This document shows, piece by piece, positions 4,779 to 34,930 of a stretch of 64,000 nucleotides of DNA (positions are counted from its first letter, which is position 1; each line of letters starts with the position of its first letter). Both the position numbers and the translations under genes were made by a program. The DNA is from Ehretia macrophylla. Taxonomy: Eukaryota > Streptophyta > Magnoliopsida > Boraginales > Ehretiaceae. The stretch covers positions 12,857,001 to 12,921,000 of the forward strand of contig CM075777.1 of NCBI GenBank assembly GCA_037974665.1. The letters are read 5' to 3'. Under the pieces are notes generated by a model, which saw nothing but the letters and a program-made list of their open reading frames with translations, searched no databases and was not told where the DNA came from.

Positions 4779-7700
4779 ATGGAAATTAATACAAGTAGAA
4801 TGATATGTTTGAATGGTTTGAATTATGCCATGTGAAAAAGAAAAATGGAAGACTTGTTGTATGTGAAAGATTATTATCTACCGGTGTTTACTACTGAAAA
4901 ATCCGTGAGTAAAACTGATGAAGAATGTGAGTTATTTCACAAACAAGTGTGTGGGTATATCAGGACATGGGTAGATGATAATGTGATGAATCACATTAGT
5001 GAAGAAACACATGCACGCACATTATGGAACAAACTTGAAGAATTATATGCACAAAAGTGTGGGAGCAACAAGTTGTTTTTGATAAAACAATTGATAGGTT
5101 TGAGATACCGAGATAAAACCCCTATAACTGATCATGTAAATGAATATCTTGGGATTATAAATCAGTTAGATGCCACTGGCATTAAATTGGATGATGAACT
5201 TAAGGGTTTATTGCTTCTTGGTACTTTACCGGACTCATGAGAGACATTTAGAATGTCATTGTGTAACTCAACCCCAGATGGTGAAATCACTTTGAATCTA
5301 GCTAAAAGTAGACTTTTAAATGAAGAAGCTAGAAGAAAGTCACAAAATTCCTCTTCAGAGTCAGATGCTTTGGTTACTGAATCTAAGGGGAGGAATAAGC
5401 AAAATGGTTCGGGAAATAGAGGAAGTAGTAGAAGCAAGTCAAGAGGGAAGTATAGTAATGTCAAATGTCATCACTGTGGAAAAATGGGTCATATCAAGAG
5501 ATTTTGCAGAATATTACAAAATGAAAATAAAAACAAAGATAATGATAAGAAGAAAGATGATGATAGTGGTAAAGATCGAGTTGCTACCACTACACAGGAG
5601 TTTTTCATTGTATATGACAGTGATGTTATTAATCTTGCATGTCATGATACATGTTGGGTGATTGACAGTGGTGCTTCTATTCATGCTACTTCTCGAAAGG
5701 ACTTTTTTATGTCTTATACAGCTGGTAATTTTGGAGTTGTGAAAATGGGTAATGATGGTGTCGCCAAAGTTGTCGGTACAGGAGATGTTTGCTTGGAGAC
5801 TGAAAATGGCAGCAAATTAATTCTTAAAGATGTGAAGCATGTTCCTGACATTAGATTGAATTTGATCTCTGCAGGTAGACTTGATGATGAAGGTTTTCTT
5901 AATACCTTCGGTAATGGTCAATGGAAACTTACAAAGGGCTCTATGGTTGTAGCCAAAGGTAAGAAATACTCAACTTTGTATTTGATGAATTCAAAGGTTT
6001 CCAGGAGCATTGTCAATGCAGTGGAAAATGAAGATGCAACAAAGTTGTGGCACAAGAGACTGGGTCACATGAGTGAGAAGGGAATTTCAGTTTTATCCAA
6101 GAAGAAAATTTTATCGGGACTAACAGATCCACATATGAGAAAATGTGATCATTGCTTTGCAGGAAAGCAGAACAGGGTTTCTTTCCAGAGTCATCCACCT
6201 TCGAGGAAGGAAAATGTACTTGAGCTGGTACATTCGGATGTGTGTGGTCCGATGAAAATTAAAACACTTGGTGGTTCTTTTTACTTTGTGACGTTTATTG
6301 ATGACCACTCCAGGAAGACTTGGGCTTATACCTTGAAGTCTAAAGATCAAGTGTTGGATGTATTCAAGCAGTTTCAAGCATCCGTTGAAAGAGAAACAGG
6401 AAGAAAATTGAAATGCATCCGTACAGATAATGGAGGTGAATATTGTGGTCCATTTGACAAGTATTGCAAAGAGCAAGGTATCAGGCATCAAAAGACATCA
6501 CCAAAGACACCACAGTTGAATGGTGTTGCTGAGAGAATGAATAGAACTTTGATTGAAAAGGTAAGATGTTTGCTTTCACATGCAAATCTACCACATTCAT
6601 TCTGGGGTGAGGCTTTGAATACAATTGTTCATTTGTTGAATCTCTCACCATGTATTCCATTAAAGCTTGATGTTCCTAATAGAGTTTGGACAGGGAAAGA
6701 TGTTTCTTATGATCATTTGCGAGTCTTTGGATGCAAGGCGTTTGTACACATTCCAAAGGATGAAAGGTCCAAACTTGATGTGAAGACACGATAATGTATA
6801 TTTGTCGGTTATGGCCTTGATGAATTTGGTTACATGCTATATGATCTAGTTGAGAAGAAAATTGTCAGGAGCAGAGATGTTGTATTTGTGGAGGATCAAA
6901 CAATTCAGGATATTGGCAAAGCAGAGAAAGAGTTACCCCCACAGTCAGATAAATTGGCTAATCTTGATATAGTGCCTTCAACGCCACCAGTAACAGAGTA
7001 GGTTGAAGATGATGATCAAGGTAATTTCCCTAATGATGATCAAGCAGAAAGTCCTACACAGGTTGAGGTAGGTGATGATGATAGTCAGCTTGAGACTCCA
7101 CCAACAATTCCACTCAGGAGGTCCGTTAGAGATAGACAGCCTTCCACAAAATACTCTTCTGATGAGTATGTTTTATTGACAGATGGAGGTGAGCCTAAAA
7201 ACTTTGAAGAAGTTATGGATGATAAACATAAAAATGAGTGGATGGAAGCTATGCAAGATGAGATGAAATCTTTGCATGAAAATTGCACATTTGAGTTGGT
7301 GAAGTTGCCTAAAGGCAAAAGAGCTTTGAAAAACAGATGGGTTTACAGGTTAAAGCAACAAGAAAATACTTCACAACCACGATACAAAGCAAGACTGGTT
7401 GTAAAAGGGTTCAGTCAGAGAAAAGGTGTTGACTTTGATGAGATTTTCTCTCCAGTTGTGAAGATGTCATCCATTCAAGTTGTTCTGGGTTTGGTTGCTA
7501 GTCTTGATCTAGAGATTGAGCAGATGGATGTGAAAACTGCTTTTCTTCACGGTGATTTGGAGGAAGAAATTTACATGGAGCAACTGGAGGGGTTCAAAGA
7601 AAAAGGAAAAGAGGATTATGTGTGTAAACTGAAGAAAAGTCTTTATGGCTTGAAACAAGCACCTCGACAATGGTATAAGAAGTTTGAATCTGTTATGGGG

Positions 7701-8756
7701 GAACAAGGCTATAGGAAAACTTCTTCGGATCATTGTGTCTTTTCTCAAAAATTCTCTGATGATGATTTTATTATCCTGTTGCTATACGTTGATGATATGT
7801 TGATTATTGGCAGGAATTCTTCAAGAATTGACAGGTTGAAGAAACAATTGAATAAATCTTTTGCTATGAAAGACTTAGGACCAGCAAAGCAGATTCTTGG
7901 CATGAGAATCAATCCAGACAGAAATGGCAAAAATGTGTATTTGTCACAAGAGAAGTACATCGAGAAAGTACTTCAAAAGTTCAACATGGATAAAGCTAAA
8001 GTGATTAGTGCTCCTCTTGCTACTCACTTTAAGCTAAGTGCTCAACAGTGTCCTTCTACAGATGAAGAAAAGAAAGATATGTAGAATGTTCCATATTCTT
8101 CAGCAGTGGGAAGTTTGATGTATGCTATGGTGTGTACACGGCCAGACATAGCACATGCAGTTGGTACGGTGAGTCGTTTTCTCTCAAATCCTGGGAGAGA
8201 ACACTGGAATGCAGTGAAGTGGATTATGAGATATCTTCGAGGCACATTCAAACTGAGACTTTGCTTTGGATGTGAGAAGCCTATGCTTGTGGGTTACACA
8301 GATGCTGATATGGCTGGAGATGTTGATACTCGTAAGTCTACTTCGGGTTATTTGATTACCTTTGCAGGGGGAGCTGTGGCATGGCAATCGAGATTGCAAA
8401 AGTGTGTTGCCCTTTCCACCACTGAAGCGGAGTTCATTGCAACAACTGAAGCATGCAAGGAATTGCTATGGATGAAAAAGTTTCTGGAAGAACTTGGGTT
8501 TGAGCAAAATGAATATGTCTTGTATTGCGACAATCAGAGTGCAATACATCTTGGTAAGAATTCTTCATTTCATTCAAGATCGAAACATATTGATGTGAGC
8601 TACCATTGGATCAGGGATGTTTTGAATTTGAAATTGTTGAAACTTGAAAAAGTTCACACAGATGACAATGGCTCCGATATGTTGACGAAGGCGGTGCCAA
8701 GAGAGAAGCTTGAGATATGTCGTTTGGTTGCCGGGTTGATTGACCCACCCACATGA
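4779..8756 (+). pseudogene. Ty1/copia gag-pol polyprotein, Tnt1-like, broken by stop codons
   Basis: A single frame runs from the ATG at 4779 to the stop at 8756. In order it carries gag, a CCHC knuckle (5466-5507, CHHCGKMGHIKRFC), an aspartic protease motif (DSGA near 5665), and integrase with the GAG-preintegrase motif (WHKRLGHM, CDHCFAGK) and the expected acidic residues in SDVCGP, TDNGGEY and GVAERMN. Reverse transcriptase follows with an intact YVDD (7785-7796), then RNase H (TDAD, TTEAEF, YCDN). The order integrase before RT marks it as copia. Five in-frame stops interrupt it: TGA 4833, TGA 5238, TAA 6792, TAG 6999 and TAG 8082. No frameshift is seen. The protein resembles the TNT 1-94 group. 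It cannot make a full polyprotein as it stands. Confidence 0.9.
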
Positions 8757-10340: not shown

Positions 10341-11066
10341 CTACACATCTTCCCCCATCACATCCTTGAGCGAGATGAAGCTAGGAACATATAGAATAGC
10401 TTGACAATACTCATCTCCTGTAGCACGAACCTTAACTCGAGTTGATTTCTTTTCTTTTGGATTGTAAGAGAACATCTTACCAGAACGCGCCACCATCAAG
10501 ATCTCCCCATCTCTCCAGATTGTGATTGGAACAAGCTTATTAGTAATCGACGAAGCCCAACTCATTGATAACCGATCTCTAGTCCAAGACTCAACAACCC
10601 CGTAATCTTTCATCCACCATATCTCAAGATCATTCCATTTGTTGTCAATTATACATAGACAATTCCTTAGTACTCTTAATTCCATGAAAAAGATTCTGCT
10701 CAAGTCATGTGGCGATGGTATTGCCCGGACCATCTCTTCCTGTATATCAAATGAAAACAAATGAGCACCCCCTTCATAATCAGTTTCTTCTATCCAGTGA
10801 AGAGCTGCATTAAGAGTAACACCACAAATCCTTCTATGTATAGGAAATGGTGCATCACCCACATCTCTCCAAGAATCATTAACTCCAATTGTGTAAACCT
10901 CAGCCTCTGATTTTAATGGCTGGCGAATATACTTTTTCCTTGCAATTCTTAGTATCTTAAACTTGCCCGAGGCTGAGCTATAACCAAATCCATAAGCAAA
11001 ATCGCGAACCCTCTTTGAACTAGGCTTCAAAACCTTGACACGCTTTCTTAATGTTGGATTACTTAT
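10341..11066 (-). pseudogene. F-box copy B, 3' part (FBA domain), cut off by a retrotransposon
   Basis: From the insertion point the frame reads ISNPTLRKRVKVLKPSSKRV and continues through an F-box-associated domain (YGFGYSSASGKFKILRI, EAEVYTIGV, APFPIHRRICG, LHWIEE, IWWMKDYG, LPITIWR-like PITIWRDGE) to a stop at 10341. It matches the C-terminal half of intact copy C along its full length. The 5' half, with the F-box, is 16.5 kb away at 27569-28105 on the same strand. The junction carries the CTTAT duplication. The frame continues a few codons into the LTR but gains no ATG there, so this part has no start codon of its own. Apart from the insertion the coding frame is undamaged. Confidence 0.88.
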
Positions 11067-11266
11067 TGATAGAACGTAATTGAAAGGGTGATTACTAGTG
11101 TACAACTACATGATTTCTTTCTTTCTATAGCTACTAATCTGTATGATTCTCTCACAATTGTATGCTTGATTCTCTCCTTAACTATAGGTAAATCGCTGAA
11201 TGTATATACTATAAATTGTACTGCTTCATATCAATGGAAATACACAATTATTATCAAAAGCTTTTA
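11067..11266 (+). repeat. 5' LTR of the outer copia element
   Basis: It begins TGATAGAACG and ends AAAAGCTTTTA, directly followed by the start of a Met-tRNA primer-binding site (TGGTATTAG). A TATAAAT box lies inside. The 200-bp length is short but normal for some copia lineages. Confidence 0.92.
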
Positions 11267-16552: not shown

Positions 16553-16883
16553 TATTATTTTAATTTATCTCATCATGTTTACTAGTCATATGATAAACGA
16601 TTCACCTTTAGATAAATCCAAAAGTCCAACGAATAGTAAACGTCAGATTACCCATCAATCCTAACAATATAAATAATAGGCATTTTATAGGTAAATGGAT
16701 AAAAACTGGATCAATCCTAAAAAGTGGAATTTGCGACAGGCCGTCGCCATGCCGTCTCCAACACGACGACGATTTTGTGACGGAAAAGTTTGACTCAAGT
16801 TTTGTGAGGGAAAAGTAACGGCAAAATATCTACCACAAAAAACCGTCACTAAGCCATCACCGTTGATACGACCGTCTTTGCCA

Positions 16884-17219
16884 TCTCCAATTTCGTGACG
16901 GGAGTTGAATCCCGTCTCTACCAATCTTTTTTTAAAAAAAGCTTGGAGACGGGAGTTCCCGTCTCCAATAATAAAAAAAAATAGCTTGGAGACGGGAGTA
17001 GTCCCGTCTCCACCAATCAAAAAAATTTGCTTGGAGACGGGAGTTGGATCCCATCTCCACCAATCTTTAAAAAATAAAAAAAAGCTTTGAGATGGGATCA
17101 ACTCTCATTTCCACCAATCTTTAAAAAAAAGCTTGGAGACGGGAGTTGAATCCCGTTTTCACCAATCTAAAAATAGCTTGGAATTGGGATTCAACTCCCT
17201 TCTCCACTAATATTTAAAT
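16884..17219. repeat. Array of seven short palindromic units
   Basis: Units of about 43-58 bp begin GCTTGGAGACGGGAGT and continue with the complement ACTCCCGTCTCC, then an A/T-rich spacer starting CACCAATC. Each unit can fold into its own hairpin. Some units have compensating changes on both arms (for example GGAATTGGGA and TCCCTTCTCC are only partly paired). The array lies in the left subterminal region of the CACTA-like element and may bind its transposase, which is inference. Confidence 0.75.
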
Positions 17220-17244
17220 AAAATAATAATAAAAAAATTAAAGG

Positions 17245-17271
17245 ACATCAGCCCCCCAATGGGGCTGATGT
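17245..17271 (+). repeat. Perfect hairpin next to the palindrome array
   Basis: ACATCAGCCCC, loop CCAAT, then GGGGCTGATGT: an 11-bp perfect stem with a GC-rich base, isolated in AT-rich DNA. Confidence 0.7.
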
Positions 17272-17321
17272 AATTTCAAAAACAATCACCCACCCCCACG
17301 TCCCCTACCCCCAACGCATGA

Positions 17322-17512
17322 CCCTCCTCGTCCCCCACCCCCACCCTCACCCTCACCCTCACCCTCACCCTGCGACCCACCCCCATCCCAGTCCTAGTCC
17401 CAGTCCCCTACCCCTACCCCCCATCCCATCCCAGTCCCCTACCCCTACCCCCCATCCCTACCCCTTACCCAGCGACTTACAGCCCCCCACCCCTGCGACC
17501 CCCTCCCTCAAC
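17322..17512 (+). repeat. Cytosine-rich imperfect tandem repeat
   Basis: Repeats of CACCCT and CCCTACCC-type units make a nearly G-free strand. The complementary strand is G-rich and could form G-quadruplexes. The 80-codon open frame over it (17318-17560) is a low-complexity artefact. Confidence 0.65.
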
Positions 17513-17891
17513 CATAAGGTAATTTTATTTTATTGTTTTTTGTTATATATATATATATAATATTTACATATAGATGTGTATATACATACATATATATATA
17601 TAATTTTTGTATGTTATTTTTGGTTTTTTTGAATTTTTTTTCTTTTTTAGTTCTTTTGCTTTTTTTTTGTTTTTTATTGTTTTGTATTTTTCTGTTTTTA
17701 TTTTTTTTTATTTTTTTTTATATTTTATAATTACTAAGATTAAAATTATATTTTTAAATATACACTTCATCAGGTCAGTCTTTCATTTTTTTTTTCTCTT
17801 AGCTTTGTGGATGAGTTGTGAGTTGCCTGTTTGTGCGTTCTTTGTCTGTGAATGGTGGTGGTGTGCTCACGAGAAGAGAGTATGTATGTGT

Positions 17892-18584
17892 GGGTGGTCA
17901 GGCCGTACAGACGGGCCTGCACAAAATGCAACCTTCTCAGATGACTTTGACCTGGCTTTTGCTCCCGCACAATGTGCTTTGATGATATCGGATCATGGTA
18001 ACAGATTGGTCAGACAAATAAATTTGAAAGCAGAAGTTTGTAAACAAACATCAAACAATGGTAAGCATTTCGAATTTTTCCATTAATGAATTAAAACATG
18101 TGTGAGCTTCTCCTAGTATACCGTAAGCATACATTTTAAGCATTACAGCTTTATATTTGGATTATTTTCCTGTAAGTTATAGGATCAAGGCTAAAGTTTT
18201 GAGGAATTCTGGTGTTTCAATGCATTTTGAAATTAATTTCCTGTTTGAGTACTAGCAACATTATCGCTGTGGAAATCTAAAAAATCTGCTGCTTCCTGAT
18301 AAGGTATTGCAAATAACAAAAATGTGCTAATTGATTCTCGTCTAAAAGACACGTGAAATTGATCTTTTGTTCCTTTACTAATTTTGAAAAAGGTAACTGG
18401 TTGAATCTTTGAAATGTACTTCTCGAAACGTATTCTTGATCTTTAATCATAATTTGAATTATAGTCTGTAAACATATACTCAATTGCTAATGTAATCTAT
18501 AATTTTGCTCAGTTCTGGGAACAACCTTTGCTTGGGTTCTTGGTTTGGTACTTCTACCATTTGTGCTAACTTGTGGTTATTGAA
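17892..18584 (+). pseudogene. Captured fragment of an NHL-repeat domain gene, two exons and an intron
   Basis: The first exon piece (17892-18060) reads GWSGRTDGPAQNATFSDDFD followed by LAFAPAQCALMISDHGNRLV and RQINLKAEVC, the end of an NHL beta-propeller as in plant NHL-domain membrane proteins. A canonical donor GTAAGC starts at 18061 and an acceptor TTTTGCTCAG ends at 18512. The second piece (18513-18584) continues in frame as VLGTTFAWVLGLVLLPFVLT, like the hydrophobic membrane segment that follows the propeller in that family, then stops. The N-terminal propeller blades are missing, so this is a fragment. It keeps its intron, so it was moved as DNA rather than as a processed transcript. 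It lies inside the CACTA-like element and abuts the RALF-like gene on the other strand. Confidence 0.75.
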
Positions 18585-18873
18585 CTTTGCAAAATTCTTT
18601 GACTGGGTTACTCGTCGCGGGAGTGATGGGCTTGGGATGAGAAGCCAAAATCCTTCTGCTTACTTGAGATTCCATCAAGAATTCTTCATCATCATCGGCG
18701 GCAAGGCAGTCACCAATTAATGTGCCATTGCACACTGCAGGGTGGTGGTTGATACTAGTGATGCTTATCATGGCATTAGCTCCTCCTGGCATGTTAGAGC
18801 TAACTATTAATGTGAGTCCAACAACACCAATAGAGACGTAGAGGTACCCAGCTCTCTTGAAATCATTGCCCAT
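18577..18873 (-). pseudogene. RALF-like peptide precursor, mature region missing or broken
   Basis: From the ATG at 18873 the frame gives 98 residues. A hydrophobic signal segment (about residues 9-34, ending GGANA) is followed by the RALF propeptide signature: CNGTLIGDCL, then an acidic stretch DDDEEFLMESQ and the dibasic processing site SRRIL (residues 72-76), where plant site-1-protease-type cleavage normally releases the peptide. In RALF precursors a YISY-type mature peptide with four cysteines should follow. Here the frame ends after about 22 unrelated residues, where the opposite strand becomes the NHL fragment. A short NPSKGCS segment, reminiscent of the RALF C-terminus, is present in another frame and may be a trace. 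RALFs are secreted ligands of FERONIA-type receptor kinases. This copy probably makes no active ligand. It may still be transcribed, as a TATA run lies just upstream. Confidence 0.6.
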
Positions 18874-18911
18874 CTTTAATTTGTTTTTGTTTCCTTTTTC
18901 CAAATGAATCT

Positions 18912-18934
18912 ATCTCTATATATATATATATATT
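18912..18934 (-). promoter_or_regulatory. TATA-rich run upstream of the RALF-like gene
   Basis: An alternating TA run ends about 40 bp before the RALF-like ATG on the minus strand. Position and sequence fit a TATA box captured with the gene. Such runs are common in this AT-rich DNA, so the call is tentative. Confidence 0.35.
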
Positions 18935-20156
18935 GTTCGTTGTGCAGTAGCTAGCATTTGAAAAGGATTTTGGATATGGAATGGGTGGCTATCCTTTAAA
19001 TTCTTATTGGCATTCAAAATGATGGTCTACCACCATGTGCATTTACTATTAAAAAAATGTCAGCCGAGGGCGTCATTACAATTATAACAAGTGCACATTT
19101 CCTAATTGTGTTTGGCATTTTGCAGCTTATCAACTTGCACTTTCTGTTTTATTCATTTGTTAACACATTTTGTTTCTGAATCAAACAAGTAAGATAAGTT
19201 TCCTTTGGTCATTTTTTATCCTTTGCATCAATAAATTGCTTTTAGACCTCTTAATCATGATATACCTTGTGTGTGTGTGTTAGCTCTTTTGGACCAGTAA
19301 ATGACTTCACTACACCATGTTACACCTCCCAATTCTTAAAGTGCTGATTTTTCTCAGATAGCTATTACAATACCAAATGTTTATGCAGCCATTTGTATAG
19401 AGTTTATCCCAGTGCCCTAAACATGGATTACATAATCTGTTTAAATCACCAGATAGGTTTGCATTGCTTAATCCATTTTTTCCTTCTGCTTTCTTTTTCT
19501 TCGTTAATCTAAATGTACCTCCTCATTTAGACTTAACATCAATATGCCTAACAAGTCTCATGACATCCAACAAGCTCATTGATTTTAATACTAAAGTTTC
19601 TCCATTCATATGAAGAAGCTTTCTTAACGAAACTTTTTATTTTTTCAAATATCTTATGGTTGGACACATATCTAGGAAGACAACGTACATGCTTTCCCTG
19701 CCTGTTGTAATTCATCTAAATAGTAAAAGGTTGTTTAGTAGTATTTATTTATATTTGGTTTCTAAATTTTAATTTTCTTTATATTTGTGCGGCAATAACT
19801 AGGTTTTATGTATCAACTCAAATTAACTGTATTAGAATTTACATAATTAATACCATTTATTCCAATTTATTGATACAAGTTGATTCTCATTGCAAGTCAT
19901 TTTATTTATAATATTTTATTAATATACATTGGGCTCATATGCATGGGTCAACTCTAACTCGTATGTATATAAAAGGGTTAGTTGTACATATATCATTCAA
20001 AGATGATCTATTTTTGCATTATACCCATTTTTGTAACAGATTTGTTTCTATTATAAAGAATTGTGACATGTTAGACAAAGTAAGGATAATAATTAACAAT
20101 GTACACATGTAGAGAGAAAAGGGGGTTTTGGGAAGAGAGAGAAGATAAACTGTTGC
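18935..20156. other. Non-coding interior of the CACTA-like element
   Basis: No coding region is seen. The sequence is AT-rich without obvious repeats and may be captured 5' flank of the RALF-like gene. Confidence 0.35.
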
Positions 20157-20400
20157 ATGCAATTTTGGCGAGGGCTTGGTGACGGCTGTTTTGGTGACGG
20201 CATGGGGACGGGTGAAGTTGGCAAGGGCGTGGTGATGGGAAATATTAGTGATGGTATGGTGATGGGAATTGTTTGTGACAATATGGTGACGAGAAATTTT
20301 TGTGACGGCGTGGTGACGGGAAACATTGGCGAGAGCTTGGTGACGACAATTATTGGTGACGGCCTGGTGACGAGCCATCGCAATACGGCGAAGGCTTGGT
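20157..20400 (+). repeat. GTGACGG-type subterminal repeats
   Basis: About eight imperfect units of roughly 30 bp share the core TTGGTGACGG / TGGTGATGGGA. They sit 130-375 bp from the CACTA-like right terminus, where transposase-binding repeats are found in this superfamily. The open frames on both strands here come from the repeat period and are not genes. Confidence 0.65.
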
Positions 20401-20532
20401 GACTGGGAGGATTTTGGCTACCACCTCGTGTTTGACGAACATTTCCCCTCACCGTGTCGCCGCAAAGTCGAAATTAACGACAGCACAGTGAGGGAAACCG
20501 TCCGTCGCATAATTCAGTTTTTTTTTGTAGTG

Positions 20533-21010
20533 GGTGACTAAAGAACTAACATAAGATGGATTTAACTTTAATAACAACTATAAACGAATAAAATTTATAA
20601 TTTTCTTGGTTGGCCACTTTGGTGACTAACGAACCAACTTAATATGAATTTTAAGTTCAATAATAGTTAACAACAGATAAAATCCAAAATTTTGGTTTGG
20701 TCACTTTGGTGACTAACAAACCAACTTAATTGGATTAAATTCAATAATAATTTTCAACTATTAAAATCCAAGCACTTTCTAGTTTGGTCACTTTGGTGAC
20801 TAACAAACCAGCTTAATATGGAGTTTAAATTTAAATAATAATTGTTAACAAATAAAATCCAAAGCTTTATGGTTTGGCCACTTTGGTGACTAACAAACCT
20901 ACTTAATATAGATTTTAAACTTAATAATAATTGTCAGTGAAGAAAATCCATCAACTTTCTAGTTTGGCCACTTTGATGACTAACAAACTATCTTAATATG
21001 AATTTTTTTA
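20533..21010 (+). repeat. Tandem array of about 90-bp units
   Basis: Five to six units start GGTGACTAACAAACC(A)CTTAAT and end GGTTTGG(T/C)CACTTT. The first, most diverged unit begins exactly at the CACTA-like right end. The array is non-coding. The units are diverged from each other, so it is old. Confidence 0.75.
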
Positions 21011-22499: not shown

Positions 22500-22838
22500 T
22501 GTAAGCAAAATTATTGCGATGAACATAATGCAATTAAAATTATCAGAAGCATGTAATCATCATATAAAATCATTAAGAGTCATAAGCTACTTACTTGATG
22601 CGAAAGACGAAGCCATAACAATGATTAATTGATTTCTCCACCTTAACCCTATTTTTAATAGTGTAGATGTGTGATGAAATTCTACAACTCTCTTCAGGGA
22701 AGGGAAAGGACTAATTAAAATACATTTATAGAAACAGGTTGTTAATTCCATCAAGTAACCTAATAGGCTTGGATTTTAGTGAGTTATTATTATAATTAAG
22801 TGAGTCACCAATAACTTTAATAGGTCACTTCACTTACA
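22500..22838 (-). repeat. 5' LTR of the inner copia element
   Basis: The 339-bp LTR starts TGTAAGC and ends CTTACA on the plus strand. It carries about 57 bp, around GCATGTAATCATCATATAAA, that the other LTR lacks. Confidence 0.9.
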
Positions 22839-22846
22839 ATCAGAGC
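22839..22846 (+). other. Right half of the outer element's primer-binding site
   Basis: ATCAGAGC resumes the outer element directly after the inner LTR. Its first five bases are the right target duplication of the inner element. Confidence 0.88.
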
Positions 22847-25800
22847 ATGTTGCCTAGAGCAAACACAATACGATCCAATCTCTCTTTCTTTTCTGCGTCA
22901 ACAAATTCCGTTATCCTCGTCATGTCTTCTCCTTCAAATACATCCTCTTCCTCAGAAATACCCGTTGTCATTTCCACTGGAAATAATAACCAGATACAAA
23001 CATCTCTTATCTCACTCAATGCTGCAACCCAAATATCATTCAAACTATCAAAAGGTGGCAACTATGCATCATGGAAATCACAATTCACGAATCTGTTACT
23101 TGGATATGATCTCTTGGGATACGTAGATGGTTCTTTTCCATCTCCTACTGAAAAAATCAAAAATTCTCAGGGGAACGAAATCGAAAATCCAGCATATAAA
23201 CTTTGGATGCGGCAAGATCGTTTGGTCCTTTTGGGCATTCAAGCATCTGTGAATGGCTCTATTGCTTCTCTTATCACTTCATGCAACACTTCTACAGAGG
23301 CATGGATGAAACTAGAGACCTCATTTGCAAATAAGTCTAGCACTCGTATGTTAACTCTCTTGGCTACATTAATGAAAACCAAAACAGGAGGGAAAGACTA
23401 TCTCTGAATATATGCAAACAATGAAAAGTATCATTGATGCTCTAGTCACTATTGGGCACCCTCTCAGCAACGAAGAAGTAGTTGTTTATGTTCTCAATGG
23501 TCTTCGCAGTGAATTCAAAGAATTGACTGCTGCTATTAGAGCTCGAGATAATCCACTGACATTTGAGGAACTTTATGATAAGCTTGTTGATCATGAAACT
23601 TATGTCAAAAGAGAAGAACCAAAGCTGCCTACAGATACTATCATTACTGCCCAATTCAATCAGAAAACAAATAAAGGATGTGACAGACAATCAAGAGGCT
23701 ACAATAACAGGAATCAAAGTAGCAACAATACAATACATGGAAATTTTCAAGGAAACAACGACCAACAAGGTCTCCTTCAACAAAACTATTTTCGACCTCC
23801 ACAAGGTAATAATTTATTGCATCAACCAGGACAATTTTATCCAAACAATACCTACCTCTAACAACAATGGCGACCAGTGTTTGGCAATGGAAGACCCAAA
23901 ATTGTGTGCCAACTTTGTGACAAATCAGGCCATTCAGCAAAGGACTGCAGATCTCGTCTGAAACCAATCTTCACCAATTGGCCACAAGCATATTTCATGG
24001 CTAGTCATTCCCCTACAAGCAGTAACAATTGGGTTATGGGTACTAGCATGTCACATCACATGACATCCGATCTCCAAAACCTCTCCATTCATTCAGAATA
24101 TGGTGGCAATGAAGACATCATGGTTGGCGATGGTAACAATATTCCAATCTCTCATATAGGCTCCACCTCACTTCGTTCACCCACTGTCACTTTTAAGCTT
24201 AATAATGTTTTGTGTGCACCCAATTAAAGAAAAATCTCCTCTCATTATCTTAATTTTGTAAACAAAATAATACATCTATAGAATTTTTTCCTAACATGTT
24301 TCTTGTGAAGAATATGAACACGGGGGCATCCTTGGTCCAAGGCCGGAGTAGAGGAAACATTTACGAATGGCCGTTGTCGTCACCACTCTCATCTCATCAT
24401 TCTCCAACTGCCTTTTCTGTCTCTATAGCTGTTTCCTCAAACATTTGGCATCAACGACTTGGTCATCCGTCATCTTCAATTCAAAATAAAATCATTAAAA
24501 ATTTCAGTTTACCTATTTCCAAATCTCAGTTTGATAGTTCATATTGTGAGTCTTGCATATATAGTAAAAGTCATAGACTTTCATTCGGCAATTCTACCTT
24601 GGTATGTACAAAACCTCTTGAAGTAATTTATACGGATGTATGGGGGCCAGCTCCTATTATTTCCTTTGATCACTTTCGCTTCTACATTATCTTTGTTGAC
24701 TACTTTACTAAATACACATGGTTTTTTCCACTTAAAGCAAAATCTAATGTACCTTTAATTTTTGAACGATTTAAAAAAGTGGTGGAAATTTTTTTCATCT
24801 CCTATATTAAAACCATTTATTTAGATGGAGGTGGCGAATACACTAGTTTATCTCATTCTCTTTAACAACATGGTATACAACACCTCAAATCCCCTCCCTA
24901 CACCCTTGAACATGTTGGTTCTGCTGAACGCAAACATCGACATGTTGAAACAAGACTCACCCTACTTCATCAAGCATCTTTACCTCTTCGATTTTGGACA
25001 ATTGCTTTTCAAGTTGCCACTTATCTAATAAATCGGATGCTAACTCCTACATTACAATCCCAATCTCCTTTTGAAAAAATATTTCACCAAAAACCAAACT
25101 TTCAAAAACTAAAGGTATTCGGATATTTATGATTTCCTTGGCTACGACCATACTCAACTAACAAATTGAAACCACGTTCACGACCATGTGTCTTTCTGGG
25201 ATATTCTTTACAACATCATGCATTCCAATGCTAGGATCCTCAATCACAAATTTTTTTTCTCTCCCGACATGTTCAATTCGTTGAGTCAAATTTTCCATTC
25301 AAACATATTTCTCCAAAGGAGTTACGTGTCACTCACAATACACTTCAAGAATGGCAAAAGTTGACCTCCAAATCTTATTCCATAATAGAATTTGAGTAAG
25401 ATTTCCCTCCAACAAATACTAGCAATATTCTCATCAGCCACCACACATCCTCTCCTACCCCCCTTTCCCCCCCAACAGAAATCTTCTCACCTCAATAGCT
25501 CATCACATGTCATTCCTCAATCAGTTCCTCAAAATCATGAACAAACACCTCTTGTCCCACATTAGACTCCTCATGTGGTATACCACCTTCACATAACAGT
25601 GACGACAATGCTTATCCAAACTCAACATCCTCTACTTCTGCTACAGCGAATGATACCACCATTAATAATTCTTCATAGGTATGTGTCCCACCATTATCCC
25701 ATACTCTTTCCTCACCATCTCACACCATGTCATCCTCTCCACCCCTCAAATTGTCACTCGTTCAAAAAATAATATTTTCAAACCTTACAAAATGCTTAAC

Positions 25801-27392
25801 CTTAACACCACTCATCAAAACGAGTCGCCTTCCTTTGAACCCACAAGTGTATCTCAAGCACAAAAATTCCCACATTGGCGTAAAGCTATGTGTGAAGAAT
25901 ATGATGCACTAATTCCCAACAAAACCTGGACCCTTGTTCCACCAAATCGCACACAAAATGTTATAGGTTGTAAGTGGATTTTTCAGGTTAAACGACACCC
26001 AGATGGAACCATTGCGCGTTATAAAGCGCGCCTTGTTGCAAAAGGATTTCACCAAATACCTGGTGTGGACTTTACTGAGACTTTCAGCTCAGTTGTCAAG
26101 CCAACAACAATTCGACTAGTTTTGACTATTGCAGTCACTTTTGGATGGAAATTACGACAATTAGATATTAATAATGCATTTTGCAGGGCATTTTAATAGA
26201 TGAAGTCTTTGTGCAACAACCTACAGGTTTCATCCATCCTCAATTTTCAAACTATGTGTGCAAATTGAACAAAGCCATATATGGCCTTCGTCAAGCACCC
26301 CAGGCATAGTACCATGAACTCCGAACATTCTTACTCTCTATCAATTTTCGAAACTCACAATATGACAACTTTCTTTTCATTAGAACAGGAAATGGACACA
26401 TTATTTACCTCCTTGTCTATGTTAATGACATCATCGTCATTGACAACAACATCTCTCTCACACAAGCCTTCATAAGCCAACTTGCGAGCAGATTCTCTTT
26501 AAAAGATTTGGGGACCCTGAACTACTTCTTAGGAGTTGAAGCTATACACACTAAAACTGCCCTCTTTCTTTCACAAAGAAAGTACATCATTGATCTCCTG
26601 CTCAAGACAAAAATGATGGATGCCAAAGCAGTAACTATACCTCTATCTTCTACTGAAACACTCCAACTTCATGATGGTAGCCCCTCGACAAATGCTACAA
26701 CTTATCGCCAAGTCCTCGGCTCCATGCAATATCTCTCCTTGACTAGGCCTGACATCTCATTTGCAGTAAACAAAGTCTCTCAGTTCATGCATAAACCTAT
26801 AATGAATCATTGGGCAGCAATAAAATGTGTTCTATGTTATCTCAAAGGCACTAGCAAACATGGCATCTTCATTTGCAAACACTCACCAATGACTGTTCAT
26901 GTCTTTGTCGATGCCGATTGGGCAAGAATTCCCGATGATCGAACTTCAACTACTGCATATGTGGTCTTCATTGGAGCCAATCCTATTAGTTGGTCATCAA
27001 AGAAACAAAAAACTGTTGCAAGGTTATCTACCGAGGCAGAGTATCGAGCCATAGCCACCACTGCAACTGAATTAAATTGGATTACCAACTTGTTACAAGA
27101 ACTTGGTGTTACACAGTCAACTGTTCCAACTATATATTGTGACAATGTTGGTGCCACTTATCTTTCCTCTCATCCAGTCTTTCACTCGCGAATGAAACAC
27201 ATAGCCATTGACTTTTACTTCATGCGGGATCAAGTTAACAGACGTCAAATCCGAGTATCTCATGATCATACAACTGATCAACTTGCAAACTCTCTTACAA
27301 AGGCACTTGCTCGCAAACAATTCATCACTCATTGGTCCAAGATTGATGTCCGTGATGGAAGCTCAATCTTGTGGGGGCATGATAGAACGTAA
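22847..27392 (+). pseudogene. Decayed gag-pol of the outer copia element
   Basis: Gag (from about 22922) shows the UBN2-type core (NYASWKSQFTNLLLGYDLLG, AYKLWMRQDRLVL). A frameshift near 23400 is followed by YMQTMKSIIDAL and a CCHC knuckle CQLCDKSGHSAKDC near 23910-23950. The protease motif is spoiled (WVMGTSMSHH where DSGAS is expected). Integrase keeps WHQRLGHPSS, CESCIYSK, TDVWGP and LDGGGEY but then shifts frame. RT spans 25.86-26.6 kb with a stop and frameshift near 26195 and YVND (26418-26429) in place of YVDD. RNase H (DADWA, STEAEYRA, IYCDN) and the C-terminal region reach the polypurine tract. Several independent lesions make it non-autonomous. Confidence 0.88.
27370..27379 (+). other. 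Polypurine tract of the outer copia element
   Basis: TGTGGGGGCA lies directly before the 3' LTR, in the usual position for plus-strand priming. Confidence 0.75.
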
Positions 27393-27581
27393 TTGAAGAG
27401 GTGATTACTAGTGTACAGCTACATGATTTCTTTCTTTTTGTAGCTACTGATCTGTATGATTCTCTCACAATAGTATGCTTGATTCTCTCCTTAACTATAG
27501 GTAAATCGCTGAATGTATATACTATAAATTGTACTACTTCATATCAATGGAAATACTCACAATTATTATCAAAAGCTTTTA
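27380..27581 (+). repeat. 3' LTR of the outer copia element
   Basis: TGATAGAACG to CTTTTA, 202 bp, nearly identical to 11067-11266 and followed by the CTTAT duplication and the interrupted F-box codons. Confidence 0.92.
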
Positions 27582-28105
27582 CTTATGTATAGACTGTGAT
27601 CATAACTGTCATAAGGATTATCGTGCAATAAACAAAGCAAGCCATTACACGAACCTATAACTGCTAATTTCTTGTTTGGCCCTTTTGGGAGATTAAATTT
27701 GCTTCCTAAATACATGGGATTGTGCAGGAAAATAATGTTGCACCCGAAAACGATGTAATCATTTCTTGGTTCAAGCTCAAGCCAGTAAGAGAGCACATGA
27801 TCAAGTGAAAGTAAAACACTAACGAATGGTGTACTTGCTAGATATGTGTTGGCAAAATAAGGGTCTGAGATGAGTTTATACCAACCTCTACAAACACACT
27901 TGCAACGAAAGATTGAGTTGATGGGGAGTCTTGAAAGTATTTTTACCAAAACCAAATTGGGCAATTTGTCGAGTCTTGTTTTGCAATTATGGCATAACAA
28001 TTTGTGCATCTTTGAGCTATGGATCAAGATATGTTCATATGATCTTGAAAGAGTGATGGGAACATCGTGAAGCTGAGAATCTTCTCCTTGTGGACCACCA
28101 GCCAT
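27569..28105 (-). pseudogene. F-box copy B, 5' part (F-box domain), truncated by the retrotransposon
   Basis: The frame opens at the ATG at 28105. Like copy A it has the HNCKTRLD Cys motif, then LPNLVLVKILSRLPINSIFR with CVCRGWYKLISDPYF, the F-box, then GSCNGLLCLL. At LYIS it runs into the LTR and stops three codons later (27569). The remaining product would be an F-box with no substrate-binding domain. The rest of the gene is at 10341-11066. Promoter motifs are still present upstream, so a truncated transcript is possible. Such a protein could compete for SKP1, but that is speculation. Confidence 0.88.
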
Positions 28106-28171
28106 CAATGCTGAATGCAATATTTGCCCACAAATGTGTGTATTGAGTATTTGATGTGCGGTTTAAGGGAG

Positions 28172-32822: not shown

Positions 32823-34133
32823 TCACGTCACATTGAGCATCTGCACATTGTCCCCAATCACAGTCTTGAGAGAGAAAAAGCTAGGAACATATAAAATAGC
32901 TTCACAAAAATCATCTCCCATGCTAGAAACCTTAATTTGAGTTGATAACTCTTCTTCTGCTGTTCCTGGATTAAAAGAGTACAGAACACCAAACCGTGAA
33001 AGCATCAAGATCTCCCCACCTCTCCAAATTGTGATTGGAAGAAGCAACTGAGAACGAAAATCGGGCGAAACACAACTCTCTAATATCCGAATTCTCCTCC
33101 AAGACTCGGCAACCCCATACTTTGTCATCCACCATATACCAAGCTCATGGTCCACATTGTAGTCAAATATACACAAACCATTTCCCATCACTCCTAGTAC
33201 CAAATTAAAAACTCCACGAATATCAGGTGGCAATGGCAGTTGCCGAACTCTTTCATCCACCATACTAAATGTCAGCAAACGAACATCCCCTTCATTATCA
33301 GCCTCTTCTATCCAATGAAGAGAATCATGAAGAGTAATACCACAAATTGTTCTATGATTAGGAAATGGTGCTTCACCCAGACTTCTCCACGATTTATCAA
33401 CTCCAAGTGTGTAAATCTCGGCTTCTGACTTTATTGGCTTGCGATAAAACTTCTTCTTGGCAATCCTTAGTATCTTAAACCGGCCAGTCGCGGAACTATA
33501 ACCAAATCCATACGCACTTTCACGAACCCTCTTCTCACTAGGTCTCAAAATCTTGACACACTCCCTCAATATCGGATTACTCACGTATAAGTCGGCTTCA
33601 TTAGGTGAATAAGTACGGTGCAGTACACAAACCAATCCATTACAACAACCAACAGTCACCAAATCATTTTTTTCACCTTTCAGGAAATTAAACATGTTCC
33701 CTAAATGAACAGGTTTGTTAGGAGAAACAAGGTAATAATTTGAATTTCCTGCTTTAAGCTCAAACCAATAAGAGAGCACATCATCACATGAAACTAAAAT
33801 TCTAACAAATGGTAGGCTTGCAACATACGAGTCAGCAAAATAAGGGTCTAAGATGATTTCATACAATGCTTTGTAAACAGACTTGCAACGAAAGATTGAG
33901 TAGACGGGAAGTCTTGTGAGTATGTTTACCATAACCAAAGTGGGCAAGTCCAGAATTGAAAAACACCCTTTGTTTTTGTTGTTGTCGAGGCTTGTTTTGC
34001 AATTGTGACATAGCAATTTTTGCTTCTTTGAGCCTCGCTTCTTTTTGGGATGATTCTTGGAGGTGTGTTCATATGATCTGGAAATAGTGATGGGAACATT
34101 GTGAAGCTCGAAATCTTCTCCTTGTGGATCCAT
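32823..34133 (-). CDS. F-box / F-box-associated domain protein, copy C (intact)
   Basis: 436 residues from the ATG at 34133. The frame stays open upstream to 34283 but only to a GTG, and the MDPQGEDFELHNVPITISRS start aligns with copies A and B. Order of parts: N-terminal arm, basic KKKRGSKKQK, Cys motif LLCHNCKTSLD, F-box (LPTLVMVNILTRLPVYSIFR), then the FBA domain (GCCNGLVCVL, SNPILRECVKILRPS, YGFGYSSATGRFKILRI, SLGEAPFPNHRTICG, LHWIEE, GIWWMTKYG, LLPITIWRGGEILMLS) to the C-terminus. In the F-box the usual AW is AL (KALYEI where A and B have AWYKLI or GWYKLI), so SKP1 binding could be altered. The predicted role is a substrate adaptor of an SCF E3 ligase in nucleus or cytosol. Single exon. 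Confidence 0.9.
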   Translation of the reverse strand: MDPQGEDFELHNVPITISRSYEHTSKNHPKKKRGSKKQKLLCHNCKTSLDNNKNKGCFSILDLPTLVMVNILTRLPVYSIFRCKSVYKALYEIILDPYFADSYVASLPFVRILVSCDDVLSYWFELKAGNSNYYLVSPNKPVHLGNMFNFLKGEKNDLVTVGCCNGLVCVLHRTYSPNEADLYVSNPILRECVKILRPSEKRVRESAYGFGYSSATGRFKILRIAKKKFYRKPIKSEAEIYTLGVDKSWRSLGEAPFPNHRTICGITLHDSLHWIEEADNEGDVRLLTFSMVDERVRQLPLPPDIRGVFNLVLGVMGNGLCIFDYNVDHELGIWWMTKYGVAESWRRIRILESCVSPDFRSQLLLPITIWRGGEILMLSRFGVLYSFNPGTAEEELSTQIKVSSMGDDFCEAILYVPSFFSLKTVIGDNVQMLNVT

Positions 34134-34269
34134 TAATGGCGGTTGTCTTTTCACAGATGAGTAAAAACAGTTGCAGAAGATGGGAGAAGGGAGAGAATAT
34201 GGAGATTTTTTTCTCCTTGTTGCGTTTTGGGGGAGAGTGTAGGGCTTTTGACGAATAGGCAAAAGAAAA

Positions 34270-34930
34270 TGGGTAGATTTCACAAATAGATTCCATCGTT
34301 TGCGCTAATTTTTTAATTTTATTTTTTATTATCTCAAAAACTACGCATTTAATCTTCCAAAAATACAAAAAAAATTAAATTTAGTACTTAATATTTATTT
34401 TTTTAATCTAGTTCTTATTTTTCCAGAATTTACGCACTCAATACTTAAAATTTGTAAAAGTTTTAATTTAGCCCATATAATATGTGATTTACATATAAAT
34501 ATTATGAATTTAATTGACTAAAAGTTAAAATGTTAGGAACTTAGTTCAAATCTTTTATAAACTAAAGATACTAAATATGTTACTTTGTGATAATAAGAAT
34601 AAAAGTGAAAAAATATAAATAATGACAAAATTTTTGTCACTTTTAAAATTGTAAAAATGAAAATAAAAAAGTGAACCAATATTGTGACCATTGATGATAT
34701 TTGTCCAAAAAACTGAAAAAAGGAGAGAGGGCGTACAAGGACGCCTCGTGAACAGTGAATGCCATTTTTTTTTCTTTATCGTTTTGGATTGAACAGTGAA
34801 TGGCAATGGCCAAAAGAAAAAAAAAAGTAATAAATGGCGGAAAACGTGGCGCGAAGAGGACTACTTTGTGGAGGGAAAATGAAAAATGGTACATCAAGCG
34901 CCAAATACAATCCATGATTAAGTGCCATTT
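34270..34930. repeat. Segmental duplication, block 2 (upstream of F-box copy C)
   Basis: Matches 58880-59545: both begin near ATGG(G/A)TAGATTTCACAAATAG and run through CTCGTGAACAGTGAATG and the ACGTGGCGCGAAG module. In the other copy this block is joined almost directly to block 1, without the F-box gene. Confidence 0.75.
34834..34882 (+). promoter_or_regulatory. Conserved upstream module shared by the F-box family
   Basis: GGCGGAAAACGTGGCGCGAAG is followed by AGGACTACTTTGTGGAGG. A version of it stands upstream of copies A (709-745) and B (28191-28225) and at 59459-59507. It holds an ACGTGGC core, as in ABA-type G-box elements, and a GGCGCGAA E2F-like core. It is about 700 bp from the copy C ATG, further than in A and B. 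Confidence 0.45.

Follow-up and report, generated by a model that had tools for sequence, protein, structure and literature searches.

Introduction

Pack-CACTA elements, described in Arabidopsis, maize and rice, are non-autonomous transposons with CACTA ends that carry host coding DNA, occur in several copies and can hold material from more than one locus (PMC8903248). In the sections of that report considered here, multi-locus material is frequent in maize, and most so for Pack-CACTA elements. We analyzed a stretch of 64,000 nucleotides from Ehretia macrophylla (GenBank assembly GCA_037974665.1, contig CM075777.1, positions 12,857,001 to 12,921,000), which we call the window and in whose coordinates positions are given unless a contig is named. 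There we found a non-autonomous CACTA element of the Pack-CACTA type (16712-20532, 3.8 kb, contig C14) that is alike in all these respects and joins a piece of an NHL-repeat gene to a piece of a RALF-like precursor gene. It differs in that its fragments abut with short shared sequence and that each copy with the fusion has one damaged terminus, features not compared in those sections (PMC8903248).

Tgm-Express1 of soybean is likewise a CACTA element with captured gene fragments, five in that case, which include introns (PMC1947982). As the relevant part of that report describes it, Tgm-Express1 lies inside an F3H intron and contributes exons to spliced transcripts, whereas the Ehretia element is known from DNA alone (PMC1947982). 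Pack-TIR elements with template-switch joints resemble the Ehretia element in breakpoint microhomology (median 2 bp) and in multicopy cases far from their parents (PMC8277862). According to the portions of that study used here, it differs in dealing with animals and for the most part with hAT and Tc/mariner elements, the majority of which are single-copy and often close to their parents (PMC8277862).

The Ehretia element bears on the question of how DNA transposons take up unlinked pieces of genes. A mechanism for capturing unlinked genes may exist and is called undiscovered in the part of a review that touches on this point (PMC13317346). Chimeric gene-carrying CACTA elements are already known, and the distinctive property here is the near base-level resolution of the joints. 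With such joints, three loci, donor-like genes and relatives in one assembly, it becomes possible to test in what order, and by what kind of step, the pieces were joined. A literature search at listing level found no report of RALF capture by transposons, which says little, and a search on terminal deletions returned nothing beyond the same review (PMC13317346).

Results

The NHL-RALF fusion is present at three loci

We searched the genome assembly (1.58 Gb, 20 contigs; the window belongs to C14) with the fused block 17892-18873. There were ten matching places, all of them scored: three contained both parts in fusion, one the NHL part only and six the RALF part only. The fused copies are the one in the window, a second one on the same contig (C14:21803586-21804567, further called C14b) and one on C5 (C5:31759046-31760009). 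They are 96% identical over 17899-19197 and have CACTA arms and an identical NHL/RALF joint in common. The NHL-only match is at C4:43065281-43065929 (90% identity over 659 columns), and the RALF-only matches are all on C2 (three at 92-93%, three at 68-71%). The NHL (C4) and RALF (C2) genes are not neighbours in the Ehretia macrophylla genome.

A search with 18860-19197 matched all seven of its candidates: the three fused copies, three C2 genes and one element on C6. The C6 element keeps only the outer 134 bp of the RALF upstream DNA, is flanked by the target duplication ATT/ATT and, judged by its sequence, is apparently an internal deletion derivative. Since the fused block stands at three loci and the C6 element holds RALF upstream DNA, the NHL-RALF fusion has spread as a unit. 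As in Pack-CACTA elements, a non-autonomous CACTA element here contains host gene DNA, and this captured DNA has multiplied together with it.

These results make it very probable that the locus is a chimeric Pack-CACTA, in which a non-autonomous CACTA element acquired fragments of two host genes before multiplying together with them. The support comes from the ends of a CACTA family, DNA-level matches that include an intron to genes on different chromosomes, the direct joint and the presence at three loci. The original prediction, made from the letters of the window, had proposed two unrelated host gene fragments inside a CACTA-like element. The matches on C4 and C2 and the fusion at three loci agree with it.

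The ends belong to a CACTA family

The element had been predicted to have GACGG-rich CACTA ends at 16712 and 20532; the word clusters and the exact right end bear this out, and the left end proved degenerate. There are 43 GACGG/CCGTC words in the window, 13 of them in 16712-17223, 7 in 20161-20532 and 1 across the intervening 2.9 kb. The right end reads CACTACAAAAAA exactly (20532-20521, minus strand from 20532). Allowing one mismatch, this motif was found twice against 1.39 expected occurrences, so the motif alone is not rare. The right end is nevertheless beyond chance, because a large family has the same ends, as the pattern count and the shared copy boundaries indicate. The 27-bp left-end pattern with up to three mismatches had 208 matches in the genome, compared with 0 for the reversed control. 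Many of the related copies among the best 40 scored of 1051 right-arm candidates end at the base matching 20532, and many copies in the left-arm search (best 40 scored of 763 candidates) begin at 16719, beside CACTA.

We also read the ends of other elements. Just outside 16719 there was CACTAC in 9 of 10 left ends and CACTAA in the remaining one. All 15 right ends were within one base of GTAGTG, 12 of them exact, in a sample that took 7 of the 15 from one C5 cluster. For two right-arm loci and four left-arm loci the fetched DNA contained no end. A CACTA family with ends like those of the window element, as had been claimed, does exist. Target duplications were exact in all three related elements for which both undamaged ends were fetched (ATT, AAT and CGA), and the C14b copy has ATT/ATT after one extra base. 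The terminal repeat of the CACTA (En/Spm) superfamily is present in the window copy with an exact right and a degenerate left side, and short subterminal repeats characteristic of the superfamily are found on both sides.

The captured NHL piece

The NHL piece measures about 0.7 kb including an intron (17899 to approximately 18583). Its exon part (17899-18060, plus strand) comes from an exon 3' of the NHL-repeat exon, according to the alignment with the C4 parent and the exon scan. It is followed by the captured intron (18061-18512, plus strand; GT-AG), whose position and ends are as in the C4 parent, and by the start of the next exon (18513-18553, plus strand), which runs up to a 68-bp internal deletion. 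This deletion took the end of the exon and its splice donor. The remaining part (18554-18582, plus strand) matches the following NHL intron and supplies the final codons of the frame (to CGY) and the first bases of its stop codon, which occupies 18581-18583 and ends at the joint. The predicted frame with its GT-AG intron was therefore right in frame and intron, with the corrections that the stop is at 18583 and not 18584, that the last codons are intron-derived and that no NHL repeat is included.

In the exons of the C4 gene the NHL repeat (PF01436) reached 21.3 against a cut-off of 20, and it lies in the exon that precedes the captured part. The captured piece itself had no PF01436 match and does not qualify as a member of the family. 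Scanning the captured fragments alone against Pfam gave only one below-cut-off match, to an unrelated model. We rejected a retrocopy origin of the NHL piece, because the intron is retained, and chance reading frames, because the DNA matches genes at 90-93%.

The captured RALF piece

The RALF piece is about 0.6 kb long (approximately 18583-19197) and consists of part of a precursor gene and its upstream DNA. The truncated precursor frame (18577-18873, minus strand, 98 amino acids) contains a signal-peptide-like start, a propeptide, RRIL and the start of the mature peptide. It is cut inside the mature peptide after FCKV, keeps one of the four mature cysteines, and its last codons (Q and stop) are NHL intron DNA. 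The frame and its length were as predicted; the precursor was found to be incomplete. An intact RALF hormone gene was rejected because of the cut within the mature peptide. The 5' untranslated and upstream DNA (18874-19197, minus strand) matches the C2 genes.

Two of the C2 genes scored 34.7 and 27.3 bits with the RALF family PF05498 (cut-off 22). The genome scan with PF05498 was incomplete, as it did not list the C2 genes though two of their proteins pass the cut-off. The captured fragment had no PF05498 match and has neither the domain nor the four cysteines of the family.

Two of the C2 genes (L012 and L013) belong to one RALF cluster (C2:50.25-50.31 Mb). Comparing them, we observed 1 difference at 223 sites of signal peptide and propeptide, 9 at 336 upstream sites and 17 at 62 sites of the mature start. 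Such a contrast could point to mosaic exchange or to a hormone part that has diversified strongly.

Joints between the pieces

Alignment with the parents had been suggested as a way to locate the breakpoints near 18575-18590, and it placed the NHL/RALF joint at 18583-18587. At this joint AACTT (5 bp) is shared with the L012-type RALF gene and TT (2 bp) with the L013 type, and the two pieces follow each other without intervening transposon DNA. The edges of the 68-bp deletion share ACTTT in the parent and ACTT in the chimeras, a microhomology reading that assumes one later substitution and a one-base slip. The joint between the left block and NHL (17898/17899) has 0-1 shared bases. The RALF/transposon joint (19196-19197) shares AA, and its site is undisturbed transposon sequence in seven relatives without the capture.

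For random joins, at least 5 bp would be expected in 0.7% and at least 2 bp in 17% of cases at the NHL/RALF joint; for the deletion, at least 4 bp would be expected in 3.7% and 5 bp in 2.0%. Because of these expectations, microhomology is likely at the deletion and the NHL/RALF joint, and the other two joints appear unremarkable.

Order, age and decay of the copies

In the NHL intron there were 31 sites at which the parent differs from all three copies and 20 that vary among the copies. For the RALF upstream DNA the corresponding values were 7 fixed and 27 varying sites with L012, and 9 and 27 with L013. The two parts differ in this respect (Fisher p = 0.0003 for L012, p = 0.001 for L013), although misalignment in a TA repeat near 18917-18932 could raise the variation in the RALF part. 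The contrast suggests either that NHL was captured earlier than RALF or that the true NHL donor was a lost relative of the C4 gene.

Kimura distances were 0.026-0.047 among the copies, 0.082-0.100 between copy and NHL parent and 0.063-0.071 between copy and RALF genes. At a substitution rate near 6.5e-9 per site and year the age would be, as a rough figure only, a few million years. In the C5 copy a premature stop interrupts the RALF frame and the NHL splice acceptor reads AA; the other two fused copies have an open RALF frame and an AG acceptor. Differences of the C-to-T type from the parents (NHL and RALF pooled, with the ancestral state taken from one parent each) were found at 12 of 37 CG, 10 of 68 CHG and 29 of 345 CHH sites, a pattern that would be expected for methylated DNA.

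We observed exactly one damaged terminus per fused copy, the left one in the window copy and the right one in C14b and C5. Damaged ends make up 3 of 6 in the fused copies and 0 of 25 in other elements (15 right, 10 left), with a p of about 0.004 that was hand-calculated post hoc and becomes about 0.009 if the seven C5-cluster copies are counted as one. Next to the damaged right end of the C5 copy (L009, C5:31.76 Mb), 19 bp of the left flank are repeated imperfectly. This repeat could be the trace that break repair with the neighbouring flank leaves behind.

Discussion

Formation of the chimeric element

The fragments may have been added when breaks inside a CACTA element were repaired with other loci as the template, either by template switching or in a synthesis-dependent process, and some of the joints would have involved short microhomology. 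The NHL fragment would probably have been added first and later shortened by the 68-bp deletion, with RALF added afterwards; an NHL donor that is a lost paralog would be the alternative to this stepwise order. Transposase from another CACTA element would then have moved the composite. The copies would have decayed later, each with one damaged terminus, with CG cytosines changed most and, on C5, with a RALF stop and a lost NHL acceptor. The captured frames are expected to have no peptide function.

A more specific version is a two-step break-repair route. The fragments would have been added successively at breaks in the element, with distant loci as the copied source, and each single damaged terminus, together with the flank copy next to the end on C5, would be the trace of a failed one-ended excision of the sort that started the captures. 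We propose it tentatively and consider it rather unlikely in this exact form. If true, it would be a concrete case of a route for unlinked genes, the kind that, according to the cited part of the review, may exist but is still undiscovered (PMC13317346).

Another possible history, also doubtful in our view, involves local hopping and a hybrid element. Aberrant excision would remove the facing ends of two nearby CACTA copies, and the DNA between the copies would then be mobilised by the ends that remain on the outside, once at NHL and again at the RALF cluster. This is the model reviewed for the Pack-CACTAs of Arabidopsis in the portions of the literature considered here (PMC13317346; PMC8903248). 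The single damaged terminus of each fused copy and the 19-bp flank copy on C5 fit the breakage and repair of one end that it implies. The damaged ends are, however, the outer ends of the finished copies and do not face captured DNA, and NHL and RALF lie together without transposon DNA between them. Furthermore, the DNA fetched from around the donor-like genes, 30 kb for the C4 gene and 10 kb for each of four C2 genes, contained no arm of the family at an E-value of 1e-5.

It is very improbable that the fusion is a functional new gene, in which RALF upstream DNA drives either a secreted peptide of 98 amino acids or an antisense transcript against the NHL gene. Upstream DNA and a start codon were captured, and most copies keep the open RALF frame and the NHL splice sites (two of three in each case). 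Against this, the C5 copy has lost both, three of the four mature cysteines are missing, and the excess of C-to-T differences at CG over CHH sites is what would be expected for methylated, silent DNA. That NHL and RALF were ancestral neighbours, with CACTA ends formed around or near them, is hardly credible: only the tail-to-tail arrangement in the window speaks for it, whereas the ten places include separate NHL-only (C4) and RALF-only (C2) matches, the donor-like genes are on different chromosomes, all three fused copies have the same arms and joint, and the adjacency at a transposon-free locus that the original prediction had named as a refutation was looked for in the Ehretia macrophylla genome and not found.

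Observations that weigh against a chimeric Pack-CACTA

Several observations count against the capture of both fragments by a CACTA element, and the first concern the donors. Of 65 sites in the mature RALF part, 16 separate the window copy from one C2 type and 15 from the other, and the 12 matches obtained from 18 scored candidates included no closer gene. For this reason the assembly seems to lack the exact RALF donor. The element preserves a piece of a RALF paralog with a mature part that we did not find at any other place in the genome. The true NHL donor may also be a lost relative of the C4 gene, and the shared bases at the joints are few.

Further points concern the ends and the source of transposase. 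The left hexamer of the window copy is CAATCC in place of the CACTAC of its relatives, and its target duplication is GAT on the left and GGT on the right, with two of three bases matching. The C5 copy has TAA on the left without a clean right partner. There was no transposase match in Pfam among the seven frames of at least 100 amino acids of the element, nor among those frames of its relatives that were scanned. Among 100 listed left-end matches, none lay within 15 kb of any of the 150 listed matches to the CACTA transposase family PF02992; among 69 listed arm matches there was a single one near a listed transposase match, on C8 at 12 kb. In favour of the CACTA reading, PF02992 itself is abundant in the genome (150 of 150 scored were above the cut-off, of 1891 candidates); it is not tied to the family of the window element among the matches listed. 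At the C8 locus (77785114-77798059), a possible lead to an autonomous partner, the 2.5 kb that were fetched (L064, 77796501-77799000) contain subterminal repeats of the left-arm type and no CACTA end.

Structure of the arms and related elements

The left terminal inverted repeat (16712-16740, plus strand) keeps its inner part AAAAAGTGGAATTTGCGAC behind the degenerate hexamer, as delimited by alignment with ten left ends and by the pattern count. It is followed by subterminal GACGG-type repeats with a period of about 45 bp (16741-17223, plus strand) and by a CCC-rich and T-rich inner arm that is partly common to related CACTA elements (17224-17746, plus strand). The block at 17747-17898 (plus strand) recurs at at least three other loci with 87-88% identity and was taken as transposon DNA. 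We detected no CACTA arm in the DNA fetched at three such loci (L059-L061). Because the extensions beyond them (L062, 4 kb, and L063, 3 kb) had no match to the element either, these loci are not established as CACTA elements. It is possible that the block is an earlier inserted or captured repeat instead. The right arm (19198-20532, plus strand) has subterminal repeats with a 27-bp period and an intact right terminus. It is followed by GGT at 20533-20535, the right half of the candidate 3-bp target duplication.

A tandem array of 90-bp units (5.4 copies, 20533-21005) starts exactly at the right end of the element; it had no copy on the left when 600 bp on each side were compared. Two relatives (L022 and L024) have a 144-amino-acid frame in common, which had no family above the cut-off when the L022 frame was scanned. 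A related CACTA element, L058 (C15:7749501-7758500), contains between two arms frames that look pararetrovirus-like by eye. Seven right-arm copies (L026-L032) lie in one region (C5:44.53-44.75 Mb) with near-identical flanks, some spaced about 24.5 kb, and probably represent a larger tandem duplication.

Other features of the window

The Rfam scan of the window gave 0 matches. Judged by eye from the reading frames, there are two copia-like retrotransposon coding regions (4836-8753 and 22796-27389). Four frames on the minus strand (3-608, 10344-11105, 27572-28162 and 32826-34304) look related by eye. Two of them were scanned: the frame at 10344-11105 matched only FBA_3, below the cut-off, and the one at 32826-34304 had matches to an F-box and an F-box-type propeller above the cut-off.

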